Virus record (IMG/VR): IMGVR_UViG_3300010391_000181
Coordinates: 1 to 27,841 of that record
DNA length: 27,841 nucleotides
DNA from: a virus
Strand: one strand, 5' to 3'
A program made the position numbers and the translations under genes. Below, in pieces: positions 1,691-25,033 of the stretch. Position 1 is the first letter of the stretch, and every line of letters starts with the position of its first letter. The notes beneath the pieces were generated by a model, which made no database searches, was not told where the DNA came from, and saw only the letters and a list, made by a program, of their open reading frames with translations.

Positions 1691-2677
1691 ATGAAGCCGT
1701 TCGAGAAGAGGGCGCTAACGCGGGCGGTCGCTCCGTTCGCGCGCGAGGCGTGGGCCCGATACCGGGACCTCCGCGCGAGGAAAGAGATCCCCGAGGCTCC
1801 CGACGGTCTTCCTTCGTCGGCGCTCCTCGCGTACCTCGTCGAGAAGGGCCTCGCGTCCGATAGCCTCGCCTCGCGTCTCGAAGACCTCCGTCTCGCGGAG
1901 GAGTTCGAGGCAACCCGTCCGACGATCTCCGTCGTTATCGCCTCGCTCAACACGAAGACGCATCTCGAAAAGTGCCTCCGCTCGATCGTCCGGTTCGCTT
2001 CCGTTCCGACCGAGATCCTCGTCGTCGACGGCGGTTCGAAGGACGGCTCCCTCGCGGCGGTCTCGGCGGCTCGGGCGGACTATCACGCGATCGAGCCGGT
2101 CGACTTCCGGGAGTCGATCTCCTTCGCGATGTCCTCGAACGAGGGCGCGCGCCGGGCCTCCGGGCGAACGCTCGTCTTTCTCAACTCCGATACGATCGTT
2201 ACGGCGCGATGGGACGAGGCTCTCCTCGACGCGCTCGCGCGCGAGAACGTCGCGGCGGCGGGACCCACGTCGAACGCGGTCAAGGGAGCGCAGATCAACC
2301 CTCGCGCCTCGATCGGATACGCGGACGAGGACGGGCTCCGCGACTTCGCGTGGGACGAGACGCACCGGTACTGGGGGCGCGTTACCGAGACGAACTTCCT
2401 CTCCGGGTTCTGCCTCGCGACGCGAGCCGATACGTGGGACGAGATCGGCGAGTTCGACGAGAGGTTCGTCCCGGGAAACTTCGAGGACGACGACTGGTGC
2501 CTCCGGGCGCAGGTCCGGGGATACCGGCTCCTCGTCGCTCGGGCGGCGTACGTCCACCACGTCGGGCAGAAGACCTTCGAGGCGAACGCGATCGGATACG
2601 CGGGCGCTCTTACCGACAATCACCGCCGAATGAACGAGAAGTGGGGTCCCGAACTCCTCGGGGTCCCGGGAGCGTAG
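1691..2677 (+). CDS. GT2-family glycosyltransferase (between terminase and portal)
   Basis: A 328-residue GT-A fold glycosyltransferase. After about 75 helical, charged N-terminal residues comes the nucleotide-sugar fold: TISVVIASLNTKTHL (about 78-92), ILVVDGGSKDGS (109-120), LVFLNSDT (161-168, the DXD-like metal site) and NFEDDDWCLRA (263-273, acceptor/catalytic acidic region), ending with HHVGQKTF. This order is typical of rhamnosyltransferase-like GT2 enzymes. ATG 1691 is chosen because GGAGGAGG lies just upstream; a TTG at 1610 in the same frame would add 27 low-complexity residues and overlap terL. The stop is 2 nt before the portal start, so it sits within the packaging operon. Donor and acceptor cannot be read from sequence. 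A virion protein or host glycan target is inference. Confidence 0.88.
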   Translation: MKPFEKRALTRAVAPFAREAWARYRDLRARKEIPEAPDGLPSSALLAYLVEKGLASDSLASRLEDLRLAEEFEATRPTISVVIASLNTKTHLEKCLRSIVRFASVPTEILVVDGGSKDGSLAAVSAARADYHAIEPVDFRESISFAMSSNEGARRASGRTLVFLNSDTIVTARWDEALLDALARENVAAAGPTSNAVKGAQINPRASIGYADEDGLRDFAWDETHRYWGRVTETNFLSGFCLATRADTWDEIGEFDERFVPGNFEDDDWCLRAQVRGYRLLVARAAYVHHVGQKTFEANAIGYAGALTDNHRRMNEKWGPELLGVPGA

Positions 2678-2679
2678 AC

Positions 2680-4860
2680 GTGGGACGTCTTCGAGAAGCG
2701 GTCGGCGCTCTCGCCTCGGCGTTCGCGGAAGGGCTCGACGATCGGGCGATCGGCGCGCGAGGCGCGGGATCGACCTCGATGACGATCATGCAAGGCGAAG
2801 CCTCCGGATGGGGGCGCGACGCGGCGAAGGAGGAAGGCTTCGACCCGAGTTCGATCTACCGGAACCGGAGCTGGCCTCATATCTCGATCTTTCGCGTCGC
2901 GATGAACCTCGCTCGCCTCCCGCTCCGCTGGTATCAGGGAGACCCGAACGGCTCCTTCGACGAACTCCCGGAGTCGCACGAACTCCGCCGGCTCTGGGAC
3001 GACCCGAACCCGAGGCAGTCCTCCTTCGACGTCAAGTTCGATATCGCGCTCTTCCTCCGGACCGAGGGCGAGGCTCCGCTCGCGCTGACCGGACCCGGGC
3101 GCGCGCCTCTCGGCGGCGCTCCGCTCCCGAAGGAGATCGAGGTCGTACGTCCGAAGTTCCTCGGCGGCGCGTACGACGAGGGGCGTCTCGTCGGGTGGGG
3201 ATACAACGAGGGCCTCCGGAAGCAGTCGTTCGCGCCGAGCGATATCGTCATGATCAAGTATCGCGACCCGAGCGACGACGTCCGGGGCCTCTCTCCGCTC
3301 CTCGCCTCGTGGGAGGCGCTCGTACAGGATCGCCTCGCGGTCCTCTTCCAGACGGCGAAGCTCCGGAACGGAGGCGCGGTCGGGTACGTCCTCGAAGCGA
3401 AGGAGTCGAACGTCGACCTCCCGGAGATGAAGCGGCGCGAGATCCGGCGCGACTTCGACGCGGTACACGGCGGTCCGATGCGCGCCGGCAAGCTCTTCAT
3501 CTCCGATCGCGGGATGAGCCTGAAGAGCCTCGATACGACCTCGCGCGATATGGAGTACGACCTCCTCCGCCGGCGTCTTCGCGAGGAGGTCCTCGGCGTG
3601 CAAGGGGTTCCGCCGGTCGAGGCGTCGTGGATGGAGACCTCGATCCGGGCGAACGCCGAGATCCAGACGCTCCTCCTCTGGCGGAATACGATCATCCCGG
3701 ACTGCGCCCTGATCGAGAACGCTCTCAACTCCCCGAGGTCCGGTCTCGCGTTCCGGTACGGGCCGAAGATCTGGTGCTCGTTCGATCTCTCCGGGGTCGA
3801 CGCGCTTCAGGAGGACCCGAACTCGAAGACCGACCGGCTTGTCTCGCTCTTCGCGATCGGGTGCTATTCGCCGAACGACGTCCTCGAAAAACTCGGCGAG
3901 TCGCCGGACGTCGGCAACCCGGCGATGGAGCAGCACTATATTGCGGGACAACCGGTCGGGACCGAGGCGGACGCCGAGATCGTCCGGCAGAAGAAGGTCA
4001 TCGCGCGGGCTCGCTCGATCCGGCGCGGGCACTACTGGGCCGACCCGCAGCGCCGGCTCGACGCTTCCCGGCTCTTCGATACGCAGCGCGACCTCCTCGA
4101 AGCCGGATGGCGCGGCTCGGCGCGGACGCTCTTCTCGGGACAGGCGGACCGGTTCCTCGCGGCGGCGGGGAAGCTCGACCCGGCGGCTCCGGCTCCCTCG
4201 GCGACGGCGTTCCTCGGAATGCTCGATCGCGAGAAGGAAGTCGAGCGGGCGCGGGAGGCGTTCGGGAAGGACGTCCGGATGAGCGTCGCCGTCGGGATAC
4301 GGTGGGGCAACAAGATGGTCCTCCGCGCGCGTCGCCGGCGGGACGGCGAGGAGTCCGGGACCCGGGCGATCCGGGACGAGGACTTCGACCTCGACTCGGA
4401 CGCGCTCGCGCTGATCGCGCGGATCGAGCAGAATCTCGTCGAGAAGGTAACGGAGACGACGTGGGACGCGGTCCGGGCCCAGCTCGCCGAGTCGGTCAAC
4501 GCCGGCGAGACCGTCGCCGAGATGACCGTCCGACTGAAGGAGGTCCTCGGGGAGCGGAGGTCGCAGTACCAGCTTCAGCGGATCGCGAGGACCGAGACCG
4601 TCAAGGCGACGAACGGCGGGACGCTCCTCGCCTTCCGGAAGTCCGGGGTCGTCGCGAAGAAGGAGTGGCTCTCCTCCGGAGACGAGAGGACGAGGGCGTC
4701 CCATCTCGCGGCGGAAGCTTACGGGCCTATCCCGATCGAGGAGGACTTCCTCGTCGGCGGGTCGAGGATGAGCTTCCCGGGAGACCCGAAGGGGCCGATC
4801 GAGGAACTCGCGAACTGCCGCTGTTCGCTCGCGCCTCTCGTCGCGGGCGAGGAGGACTAG
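2680..4860 (+). CDS. Portal protein fused to Mu F-like head morphogenesis domain
   Basis: This 726-residue protein combines two proteins usually encoded separately. Residues about 1-430 look like an HK97-type portal: an N-terminal MGRLREAVGALASAF helix, SIFRVAMNLARLPLRWY, the FAPSDIVMIKYRDPSDDVRGLSPL region (about 185-210), and DAVHGGPMRAGKLFI followed by VQGVPPVEA. The C-terminal part (about 520-726) is a Mu F-like minor head domain, with IARTETVKATNGG (about 634) and the terminal cysteine motif NCRCSLAPL (about 712). The portal is the dodecameric ring for DNA entry and exit; the MuF part probably sits inside the head. The start is GTG 2680 with GGGAG upstream, 2 nt after the glycosyltransferase stop; ATG 2779 is an alternative that would remove the typical portal N-terminus. 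Confidence 0.88.
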   Translation: MGRLREAVGALASAFAEGLDDRAIGARGAGSTSMTIMQGEASGWGRDAAKEEGFDPSSIYRNRSWPHISIFRVAMNLARLPLRWYQGDPNGSFDELPESHELRRLWDDPNPRQSSFDVKFDIALFLRTEGEAPLALTGPGRAPLGGAPLPKEIEVVRPKFLGGAYDEGRLVGWGYNEGLRKQSFAPSDIVMIKYRDPSDDVRGLSPLLASWEALVQDRLAVLFQTAKLRNGGAVGYVLEAKESNVDLPEMKRREIRRDFDAVHGGPMRAGKLFISDRGMSLKSLDTTSRDMEYDLLRRRLREEVLGVQGVPPVEASWMETSIRANAEIQTLLLWRNTIIPDCALIENALNSPRSGLAFRYGPKIWCSFDLSGVDALQEDPNSKTDRLVSLFAIGCYSPNDVLEKLGESPDVGNPAMEQHYIAGQPVGTEADAEIVRQKKVIARARSIRRGHYWADPQRRLDASRLFDTQRDLLEAGWRGSARTLFSGQADRFLAAAGKLDPAAPAPSATAFLGMLDREKEVERAREAFGKDVRMSVAVGIRWGNKMVLRARRRRDGEESGTRAIRDEDFDLDSDALALIARIEQNLVEKVTETTWDAVRAQLAESVNAGETVAEMTVRLKEVLGERRSQYQLQRIARTETVKATNGGTLLAFRKSGVVAKKEWLSSGDERTRASHLAAEAYGPIPIEEDFLVGGSRMSFPGDPKGPIEELANCRCSLAPLVAGEED

Positions 4861-21399: not shown

Positions 21400-21591
21400 A
21401 TGGACGCGGACGGGCTCTGGGCCCTGACCTTCGAGATCCGCGACCGGGACGAGGACGGGCTCCCCGTCGCCGAACTCGTCGAGCGGGAGAAGATCAACGC
21501 GGGACCTCCGCCGGCGTCCGAGGAGTTCCCGGTCGGGAGGCTCTTCGAGGTCCGGTTCTGTCCGTTCTGCGGCGGTAGGCTTCACCAATGA
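21400..21591 (+). CDS. Small protein with a C-terminal CPFCGG zinc-knuckle-like motif
   Basis: A 63-residue protein, acidic in the first half (FEIRDRDEDGLPVAELVERE) and ending RFCPFCGGRLHQ with C54, C57 and H62. One CxxC pair suggests a half zinc site, perhaps completed by dimerisation. Its ribosome site is poor (GGAG touching the ATG). It is in frame with the preceding 26-residue ORF, only one TGA apart, so it may be the second half of a disrupted or read-through gene. It overlaps the methyltransferase by 4 nt. Confidence 0.6.
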   Translation: MDADGLWALTFEIRDRDEDGLPVAELVEREKINAGPPPASEEFPVGRLFEVRFCPFCGGRLHQ

Positions 21592-22340
21592 TCGACGACC
21601 TCGACCTCCCTCCTCCGGCGATGCGCGACTGGATCGGCTCGCGGTCGAACGCCGACTTCCTCGCGTGGGGCGGATACTTCTGGCGGAAGCTCCGGATCGC
21701 CTTCGGGCTCCGTCCCGAGAGCCGGGTCCTCGAAGTCGGATGCGGTCCCGGGAGCCTCGCGCGCTGGATCGCGCCGGACCTCCGGTCGCCGGGGTCGTAC
21801 GTCGGCTTCGATATCAACCCGGAGGCGATCGCGGTCTGCGCGACGACGATCTCCGCGCGGTTCCCTCTCGCGCGGTTCGAGTTCGCGAACCTCCGGAACG
21901 TGTACGCGAGAGACAATACGGGAAGCGCGGCGGAGTATCGGTTCCCGGCGGAGGACGGCTCGATCGACGTCGTCGCCGGGATCTCTCTCTGGACGCATCT
22001 CCTCGCGAACGACGCGCGAGCCTATCTCCGCGAGGTCGCGCGCGTCCTCGCTCCGGAGGGCAAGGCGCTTATCACGCTCCTCCTCGGTCCGGATACGGTC
22101 CTCCCTCCGTCCTCGATACCGGGGCCGGACGGGCTCGTCCTCCCGAGGCTCCCGAGCGGGGAGTACGCTCACTCGGAGTGGCTCGTCGCGTACCCGTTCG
22201 AGACCTTCTCGGACCTCGCGCTCGACGCCGGACTCGAAGCGGAGATCGAGGAGCGCGGAGACTGGCGTCGCGTCGTCGCCGACGGAGAGAACCCGGACTC
22301 GTGGACGCAGGATATCATCCGAATCAGGAGGGCGTCGTGA
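21588..22340 (+). CDS. Class I SAM-dependent methyltransferase
   Basis: A 250-residue Rossmann-fold methyltransferase. Motif I is VLEVGCGPGSLARWI (about 47-61); the acidic residue binding the SAM ribose follows in YVGFDINPEAI (71-81). Later motifs are SIDVVAGISLWTHLL and REVARVLAPEGKALITLLLG. The arrangement matches Methyltransf_11/25-type small-molecule or sugar methyltransferases rather than DNA methylases, as no DPPY or PCQ motif is present. Starts at ATG 21588 in an ATGA overlap. Lying within the sugar-gene block, it may O-methylate a sugar, as in capped polysaccharides. That target is inference. Confidence 0.88.
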   Translation: MIDDLDLPPPAMRDWIGSRSNADFLAWGGYFWRKLRIAFGLRPESRVLEVGCGPGSLARWIAPDLRSPGSYVGFDINPEAIAVCATTISARFPLARFEFANLRNVYARDNTGSAAEYRFPAEDGSIDVVAGISLWTHLLANDARAYLREVARVLAPEGKALITLLLGPDTVLPPSSIPGPDGLVLPRLPSGEYAHSEWLVAYPFETFSDLALDAGLEAEIEERGDWRRVVADGENPDSWTQDIIRIRRAS

Positions 22341-22950: not shown

Positions 22951-23256
22951 ATGAGCCTCCCGAAGACCGTCCCGATTGACAACCGAGTCCTGATCCGGAT
23001 GGACGCCGAGCCGAAGTACGAGGGCCGGCTCGTGATCCCCGACACCGCGAAGCGTAAGGTCGACCTCGGGACGGTCGTCGCCGTCGGTCCGGGCTCGCCT
23101 CGGCGCGACGGGCCGGGCCGCTGCGAGATGCAGGTCCTCGTCGGGAACCGGGTCCTCGTCGGGAAGTACGCGGGACAGGAGGTCGAGATCAATGGCGAGT
23201 CGCTCTCCGTCCTTCTGGAAACCGATATCCTTCTCGTCTTCCCGGACGAGGCTTAG
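22951..23256 (+). CDS. groES: GroES-like co-chaperonin
   Basis: A 101-residue Hsp10. The beta barrel is evident from PIDNRVLIRMDAE (about 8-20), DLGTVVAVGPGSPRRDG and VGNRVLVGKYAGQEVEINGE (about 66-85), followed by LLETDILLVF. The mobile loop that contacts GroEL is present as YEGRLVIPDTAKRK (about 23-36), with LVI in the place of the Ile-Val-Leu tripeptide of bacterial GroES. AAAGGAG sits 6 nt before ATG 22951, the best ribosome site in this block. No GroEL gene is in the window, so it would work with the host GroEL, as T4 gp31 does for its capsid protein. Confidence 0.92.
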   Translation: MSLPKTVPIDNRVLIRMDAEPKYEGRLVIPDTAKRKVDLGTVVAVGPGSPRRDGPGRCEMQVLVGNRVLVGKYAGQEVEINGESLSVLLETDILLVFPDEA

Positions 23257-23259
23257 TCG

Positions 23260-23799
23260 GTGGCGTATCCGGCGCGGCGGGAGAAGTTCGAGACGCCGGC
23301 GAACCTCCGGGCGGAGACCGAGATCGTCTCCGAGATCCGGAAGGCGTCGGGGCTCTTCTTCGTCAAGCTCCCTCCGATGTACCACGTCGAGGGAGTCCTA
23401 CTCCAGACGGCGGCGTCTCGCGGCGAGGCTCCCCGGGACCCGGTCGCGATCCTCGAACTCGGCGGTCCCGGCGACGTCGTTACGGTCGACGCGGTCGTCG
23501 AGGTCAAGGAGCGGCATATCCTCCCTCGGGACTTATCCTCCGTGATCCTCTCAGTCGAGAAGGTGATCCGAGGGACCGAGCTCGCCGGGTTCCTCCGGGT
23601 CCCGTTCTTCTTCGCGGTACGCTTCGCCGATCGCGCGATCCGGGTCGCCGAGATCCAGTACGGTCCTCGCTGGACGACCGGGATCGGAGGCCGGCGCGTC
23701 GACCGGGACGGATACGACCGGGAGATCGTCGTCCACGTCCCGATGGGCGAGTTCCTCCCGCTCGACGAGTGGGCCGCGCCAGAATCCTCTCTCCCCTGA
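23260..23799 (+). CDS. PD-(D/E)XK nuclease-like protein
   Basis: A 179-residue protein beginning at GTG 23260, three bases after the groES stop. The core pattern fits the PD-(D/E)XK fold: a helix with an acidic residue (ANLRAETEIVSEIRKAS, about 14-30), then VVTVDAVVEVKER with D77, E81 and K83, and a later helix and strand (SVEKVIRGTELAGFLRVPFF, about 98-117) followed by FAVRFADRAIRV. Many phages encode such a nuclease near replication or host-takeover genes. The first acidic residue is tentative and the ribosome site is weak. An inactive structural relative is possible. Confidence 0.6.
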   Translation: MAYPARREKFETPANLRAETEIVSEIRKASGLFFVKLPPMYHVEGVLLQTAASRGEAPRDPVAILELGGPGDVVTVDAVVEVKERHILPRDLSSVILSVEKVIRGTELAGFLRVPFFFAVRFADRAIRVAEIQYGPRWTTGIGGRRVDRDGYDREIVVHVPMGEFLPLDEWAAPESSLP

Positions 23800-23812
23800 A
23801 CCGGAGGCTCCG

Positions 23813-25033
23813 ATGCAACGTCTCGACGGCGAGAAGCCGGCGAAGTTCGTCCCGGGCTCAATCGCGATCATCGTCCCGACCTGCCGACCCGAGCGGCTCG
23901 AACGCTGGTGGAACTTGTGGACGCCGGACTTCTTCGAGGGCGACCGTCCGGGCGCGCCGAACGACGTCACGGTGTACGTGATCCTCGACGCTCCGGAGCG
24001 CGAGTCGCTCTCGGTCGGGGCGTACTTCCGGGACCCGGATCTCGAAGGGCGCGCGCCGGCGTCGACGATGCGCTCCGAGGTCTATTCGTGGGCGGAGATC
24101 GACGCGGCGCTCGGCGCGGACTCGTGGATTATCCCGAGGCGCTCGGACGCGATCCGGTCGTTCGGATTCCTCAAGGCGTACCGGAACGGAGCGGAGTTCA
24201 TCCTCTCGCTCGACGACGACTGCCTTCCGGACCCGAAGAGTCTCGGGTCGTGGGTCGACGCTCATCTCGCGGCGCTCCGGAGCAAAGTCGAGGAGGCGGC
24301 GTGGGCCTCGACGATCAAGCCTCTCCGTCCTCGCGGGTTCCCGTACGGCGCGACGACTCGGTCTCTCCCGGTCGCGATCAATCACGGCGGGTGGAACGGA
24401 GTCCTCGACCTCGACGCTCCGACCCGGCTCGCGCTCTCGCGCGATCCGGCGCGCGCGTGCTCGGCGGAGTTCGGCCTCGGCGCGATCCGGCGCGGGGAGT
24501 ACGCTCCGCTCTGCGGGATGAACCTCGCCTTCCGCGCGGAGTTTGCTCCGGCGATGTACCAGCTCCTTATGGGCGCTCACGCTCGCGAGGCGTTCGCGCT
24601 CGGCGGAGATCCCGATGCGGACCTCGCGAGGATGGAGCGTCCGAGGTACCCGTTCGATCGGTTCGCCGATATCTGGTCGGGCGTCCTCGCGAAGAAGATC
24701 GCGGACCATCTCGGCTTCGCGGTCACGACCGGCGGACCGTTCGTCGTCCACGAAGGCGCGAGCGATCCGCTCGTCAATCTCGGGAAGGAAGCGGCGGGGA
24801 TACGCGCGAACGAGACCTTCTGGCGCGCGGTCGACGCGGTTCCGCTCGGAGGCGAGACCGTCGCCGAGTGTTACCTCGAAGTCGCGAACTGGCTCGGCGA
24901 AGGCTTCGGCGTCGAGGAGTTCGCTCCCGGGTACGCGACGACGCTCCGCGAGGCGATGCGCGCGTGGGTTCGCGTCCTCGGCGACCGGAAGGCTCCAGAC
25001 CCGGTCCCGTCAGTCGTTATGCCGCAAGGCTAA
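23813..25033 (+). CDS. GT75/RGP-like protein (UDP-arabinopyranose mutase family)
   Basis: This 406-residue protein follows the pattern of reversibly glycosylated polypeptides, the plant UDP-L-arabinopyranose mutases. Visible landmarks are SIAIIVPTCRPERLERWW (16-33), FILSLDDDCLP (129-139, the DDD metal site), RGFPYGATTR (174-183, the Arg region self-glycosylated in plant enzymes), INHGGWNGVLDLDAPT (189-204), PLCGMNLAF (232-240), FADIWSGVLAKKIADHLG (284-301), and SDPLVNLGKEAAGI (317-330). Length is close to plant members. GGAGG lies 6 nt before ATG 23813. It is the last gene of the sugar block, before promoter P2. Whether it makes UDP-arabinofuranose, or transfers sugar, is unproven. Confidence 0.85.
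   Translation: MQRLDGEKPAKFVPGSIAIIVPTCRPERLERWWNLWTPDFFEGDRPGAPNDVTVYVILDAPERESLSVGAYFRDPDLEGRAPASTMRSEVYSWAEIDAALGADSWIIPRRSDAIRSFGFLKAYRNGAEFILSLDDDCLPDPKSLGSWVDAHLAALRSKVEEAAWASTIKPLRPRGFPYGATTRSLPVAINHGGWNGVLDLDAPTRLALSRDPARACSAEFGLGAIRRGEYAPLCGMNLAFRAEFAPAMYQLLMGAHAREAFALGGDPDADLARMERPRYPFDRFADIWSGVLAKKIADHLGFAVTTGGPFVVHEGASDPLVNLGKEAAGIRANETFWRAVDAVPLGGETVAECYLEVANWLGEGFGVEEFAPGYATTLREAMRAWVRVLGDRKAPDPVPSVVMPQG

Follow-up and report, generated by a model that had tools for sequence, protein, structure and literature searches.

The analysed window comprises the 27,841 nucleotides of the IMG/VR record IMGVR_UViG_3300010391_000181. Its genes, all on a single strand, encode, among others, a terminase, a portal-MuF protein, an HK97-type capsid protein, a tape measure protein, a LamG-type protein and a GH108 lysozyme, identifying the contig as that of a tailed phage. 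The portal and the Mu-F-like head morphogenesis domain are fused in one open reading frame (positions 2677–4860), and the gene for a GT2 glycosyltransferase, GT2a, has been inserted between those for the terminase and the portal. The window lacks terminal repeats, so that further phage genes may lie outside it. The gene under study encodes a GT75/RGP protein, hereafter P0001 (Table 1). It was originally predicted to lie next to glycosyltransferases; the phage does encode three GT2 enzymes, but the nearest, GT2c, is located approximately 2.5 kb upstream, with the genes for a methyltransferase, a DUF3431-like protein, GroES and a PDDEXK endonuclease-like protein in between. Judging from its neighbourhood, the methyltransferase may possibly act on sugars, whereas GroES and the PDDEXK protein probably stand outside the sugar pathway. 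GroES is encoded in the phage late region, and GroEL was not seen within the window. A link between GroES and GT75 considered for 2 other contigs (L016 and L018) was dropped, the small neighbour protein in L016 having no Pfam match.

Table 1. Features of the GT75 locus and associated genes in the 27,841-nucleotide window.
Feature	Coordinates	Strand	Evidence
GT2 glycosyltransferase GT2a	1691..2677	+	PF00535, E 9.7e-16
GT2 glycosyltransferase GT2b, 470 aa	18440..19852	+	PF00535, E 2.9e-11
GT2 glycosyltransferase GT2c, 277 aa	20483..21316	+	PF00535, E 9.7e-21
SAM methyltransferase	21588..22340	+	PF13649, E 2.9e-14
DUF3431-like protein, 198 aa	22337..22933	+	Similarity to L029 and pPL62-2 proteins; profile search
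GroES (Cpn10)	22951..23256	+	PF00166, E 1.2e-19
PDDEXK endonuclease-like protein	23260..23799	+	PF24579, E 3.6e-13
GGAGG ribosome-binding site before the P0001 ATG	23802..23806	+	Sequence
GT75/RGP protein P0001, NDP-sugar pyranose/furanose mutase homologue, 406 aa, ATG start	23813..25033	+	PF03214 match, fold match, residue map

The P0001 gene displays coding-type periodicity, as do the terminase and capsid genes, with GC contents of 0.69, 0.52 and 0.86 at the 3 codon positions. The sole significant Pfam match of the protein was RGP (PF03214; E 3.7e-33, 115.6 bits against a curated cut-off of 23.8 bits), covering positions 51–336 of the 342-position profile, which bears out the prediction of a full-length GT75/RGP homologue in a glycosyltransferase-carrying phage. 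All motifs on which that prediction was based are present in order: DDDC (134–137), RGFPY (174–178), NHGGWN (190–195), DAPT (201–204), CGMNLAF (234–240), DIWSG (286–290), DHLG (298–301) and SDPLVNLGKEA (317–327). By contrast, P0001 did not match the FAD-binding UDP-galactopyranose mutase (UGM) family in Pfam or any NCBIfam model, and neither P0001 nor any sequence in an alignment of 24 members matched a PHROGs family. A phmmer search with P0001 recovered MtdL (2e-16), and a profile of 24 sequences recovered both OsUAM2 (3.7e-43) and MtdL (1.7e-40). GT75, described in the original prediction as best known from plants, does include plant members but is not confined to them, MtdL and Hyg20 being characterised bacterial representatives (PMC9937993).

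P0001 was modelled with AlphaFold2 using 29 relatives, and the model (mean pLDDT 83.5, pTM 0.86) shows the GT75 fold, with a Rossmann-like region, the GT75-specific core and C-terminal helices. The model matched MtdL, an enzyme from an antibiotic cluster of Marinactinospora thermotolerans (PDB 7xpr/7xps/7yua), with a Z score of 34.0 (3.0 Å over 316 residues, approximately 30% identity over the structural alignment) and, in the comparison with plant UAM that had been proposed as a check, rice OsUAM2 (PDB 8cid) with a Z score of 31.6. The next folds, of GT2 type, scored 15.6 and below, rendering the assignment of P0001 to the family and fold secure.

To map the active site, P0001 was aligned with its viral, plasmid and bacterial relatives, and roles were taken from the study of MtdL (PMC9937993). 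The metal site (Asp134-Asp135-Asp136, metal/ribose, and His313, metal) and the arginine pocket are both retained: Arg174 aligns with the glycosyl-acceptor arginine of MtdL (R159) and OsUAM1 (R158), and Asp199, Arg283 and Asp286 correspond to the MtdL sugar-site residues D195, R257 and D260, Asp286 being the equivalent of the proposed base. The MtdL residues D109, D111, R159, D195, R257, D260 and H287, of which R159, R257, D109, D195 and D260 are required by that enzyme (PMC9937993), remain unchanged in P0001 and in each viral, plasmid or bacterial relative of sufficient length for the comparison.

The rarity of GT75 in viruses was overstated in the original prediction. One profile scan of IMG/VR recovered 73 viral loci, and relatives are present on approximately 70 viral contigs; scans of genome collections yielded none in a first round and 11 loci in a second, with alignment. 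A further carrier is the megaphage LR756511, BFVD/UniProt already lists a Caudovirales protein under the name ‘Reversibly glycosylated polypeptide’ (BFVD A0A6J5N5Z7), and a phage-encoded GT75 in soil is mentioned in PMC12016548 with reference to an earlier study. Phage GT75/RGP proteins are thus already known, and our literature searches found no paper characterising one; what merits following are their recurring operons and their associations with DUF3431 and flagellar genes. P0001 has no close relatives, its identity to other viral GT75 proteins being at most approximately 45%. In the maximum likelihood phylogeny, viral and cellular sequences are interleaved, with 8 label changes, at least 4 of which are forced by well-supported branches, and P0001 forms a lone long branch (0.8) within a mixed viral and bacterial group. 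A protein of the isolated cyanophages S-T4 and Sf-CH8 (L133:3785–4693 and L134:2836–3693) was rejected as an isolate member of the family: it keeps the DDD motif and the arginine, but Gln replaces the metal-binding His and there is no PF03214 match at E 0.001. This protein resembles MtdL distantly, sharing its Ser-Gln, and is encoded among heptose, cytidyltransferase and fucosyltransferase genes.

Other viral GT75 genes often reside in sugar operons, the partners of which differ from those of P0001. In 5 phage contigs (L006, L007, L014, L017 and L020), the gene order is GT4-GT2-GT75-SDR; the 3 SDRs scanned were most similar to dTDP-glucose 4,6-dehydratase (RmlB-like), below the equivalog cut-off. 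In another contig, an RmlC gene (dTDP-4-dehydrorhamnose 3,5-epimerase, L009:8964–9497), with a match above the equivalog cut-off, lies directly downstream of GT75. Among 111 genes flanking 28 viral GT75 loci, we counted 14 GT2, 5 GT4, 6 epimerase/dehydratase and 5 sulfotransferase genes along with several methyltransferases, these being codon-based gene predictions from contigs that, where related, are not independent. Besides the window, DUF3431-like genes were found 0–2.7 kb from GT75 in 5 of 64 loci, 4 viral and 1 plasmid-borne (L029:7429–8007, L079:9375–10112, L055, L015 and L033). The DUF3431-like protein of the window is similar to that of L029 (E 2e-11), which itself matches PF11913 right at the cut-off, and to the DUF3431 protein of plasmid pPL62-2 (E 7e-6). 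DUF3431 is possibly an unrecognised partner in the pathway.

Several links lead to Planctomycetota, where GT75 is rare (9 of 294 genomes, several of these being weak partial matches). The best match of GT2c in 149 planctomycete genomes is the gene directly upstream of GT75 in genome G014 (46% identity, E 1.8e-56), and its best match in Acidobacteriota is far weaker (2.5e-31), supporting a pathway common to the phage and the planctomycete. The GT2-GT75-GT2 cassette of G014 is embedded in a flagellar cluster encoding FlgE, a FlgL/flagellin-type protein, FlhA and a FliA-like sigma factor, and this position suggests furanose-containing flagellar glycosylation. Over the wider region (contig C18, L114:8151–14400 and flanks), the cassette among the flagellar genes reads GT2-GT75-GT2/TPR/GT4. 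Plasmid pPL62-2 of Planctomyces sp. SH-PL62 carries, unlike the viral P0001, a plasmid-borne GT75 (38% identity to P0001), which lies beside DUF3431 and near GT2 proteins resembling those of the phage. The GT75 clusters of pPL62-2 (L079:9375–18583) and of a second planctomycete, G075 (L116:276–9246), also encode very large GT2-TPR proteins with multiple domains and a scaffold protein of the NifU-like/iron-sulfur type. The GT2c match and the GT75 neighbours hint at a planctomycete host for the phage. For host assignment, the terminase and capsid had no relatives in IMG/VR, and the portal had only distant ones, mostly with 25%–31% identity over its main part, among planctomycete genes and known phages.

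Collectively, the analyses establish the family and fold of P0001, its conserved catalytic set, its location in a phage and the sugar-gene neighbourhoods of related phages, and P0001 is probably a metal-dependent NDP-sugar pyranose/furanose mutase of the GT75 family, the product of which would feed the phage GT2 enzymes; its activity, its NDP-sugar, the use of the product by the GT2s and the final target are what we infer. This reading is favoured because the catalytic residues are kept, phage GT75 genes adjoin those of NDP-sugar enzymes, and the relative of GT2c adjoins a GT75. Following the arginine-mediated mechanism proposed for MtdL (PMC9937993), the reaction would depend on Mn2+ or Mg2+, with the DDD motif and His313 holding the metal on the diphosphate. 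Arg174, activated by Asp286, would take over the nucleotide-bound sugar in a covalent adduct, and the ring would open and reclose through O4 before release of the NDP-furanose. No NDP-sugar synthesis gene was recognised within the window, implying that the pyranose has to come from the host. The phage GT2 transferases, possibly together with the methyltransferase, would then use the donor to glycosylate proteins of the virion or a structure on the host surface. Glycosylation of mycobacteriophage capsids and tail tubes has been reported in work cited in PMC12619734. GT2c is a candidate user of the furanose donor; GT2a, GT2b and GT2c are of a generic type, and none of them gave a specific match to a furanosyltransferase. 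Such generic GT2s weigh against the mutase reading, as do the missing synthesis gene, the substitution at Gly315 described below, the lack of close relatives and the existence of GT75 proteins that are not mutases.

Within the mutase reading, the assignment of P0001 to the UDP-arabinopyranose mutase type, as originally predicted, was too specific, even though a furanose-donor role is the most likely one given the conserved mutase residues. P0001 shares with the plant RGP/UAM proteins (AtRGP2, OsUAM1 and OsUAM2) the acceptor arginine, Pro22 (Thr13 in MtdL) and the Gly235-Met236 pair (Ser228-Gln229 in MtdL), as would be expected of a plant-like UDP-L-arabinopyranose mutase. However, at MtdL positions 86/87, the base/sugar pair, it carries Ser111-Asp112 as in the GDP-sugar mutase MtdL (S86-D87), whereas active plant enzymes have Asp-Ser, and an S91D substitution abolishes the mutase activity of AtRGP2 (PMC9937993). 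Moreover, the partners of related phage GT75 genes are deoxyhexose genes of the RmlB/RmlC type, and we consider this plant-type specificity unlikely. The signature of P0001 at MtdL positions 13, 42 and 86 is mixed, with an ambiguous alignment at position 42; due to this mixture of plant-like and MtdL-like residues in the pocket, the base and the substrate sugar are not readable from sequence.

There is a somewhat smaller chance that P0001 is an arginine-autoglycosylating or ordinary GT-A glycosyltransferase, which would transfer the sugar to its own polypeptide or to a different acceptor and leave the ring uncontracted. Its fold is GT-A like, autoglycosylation is separate from mutase activity in GT75 enzymes, and AtRGP2 transfers only from UDP-glucose (PMC9937993). 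Nevertheless, P0001 keeps the full mutase residue set, and a donor-making enzyme fits better with neighbouring phage genes for donor synthesis and transfer. About as improbable is a catalytically weakened or repurposed protein, serving as a binding or partner subunit like OsUAM2. Not every GT75 protein is a mutase, since AtRGP5, OsUAM2 and HvUAM4 lack UAM/RGP activity (PMC9937993), and P0001 has at the position of MtdL Arg289, which contacts the beta-phosphate (PMC9937993), a glycine (Gly315; codon GGC, read directly). All remaining viral, plasmid and bacterial members of the alignment have Arg or Lys at this position, and OsUAM2 has Asp; a basic residue here is usual in GT75 but not family-defining. 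Gly315 would be the main sequence argument for a lowered activity of P0001, to which its lone long branch and insertions relative to its relatives at approximately positions 76–84 and 255–275 may be added. Yet P0001 retains every remaining catalytic and metal residue, whereas 3 of them have been lost from OsUAM2, namely those corresponding to MtdL D111, R257 and H287. Finally, decoration of phage DNA rather than of proteins or surface glycans is very improbable: the T4-like phage RB69 arabinosylates its DNA (PMC6024577), showing that phages put unusual pentose donors on bases, but that paper mentions no mutase, furanose or pyranose, and no hydroxymethylase, thymidylate-synthase-like or DNA-base glycosyltransferase genes were recognised in the window.

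More broadly, we tentatively suggest, while judging it considerably less likely than the mutase reading of P0001 itself, that a flavin-free module for furanose donors is widespread among environmental phages, combining GT75 with GT2/GT4 and sometimes RmlB/RmlC-type enzymes, methyltransferases or DUF3431 as an unrecognised component, and that this module may place furanose glycans on virions or on host appendages such as flagella. If P0001 is active, phages would make their own rare furanose donors by a metal-dependent enzyme and could place sugars possibly not made by the host, with a bearing on virion glycosylation, superinfection exclusion and receptor masking. An active P0001 would also add to the available GT75 enzymes, among which only a few plant and 2 bacterial members have so far been characterised (PMC9937993), and provide a source of NDP-furanose tools, for which the phage GT75 operons suggest candidate substrates.
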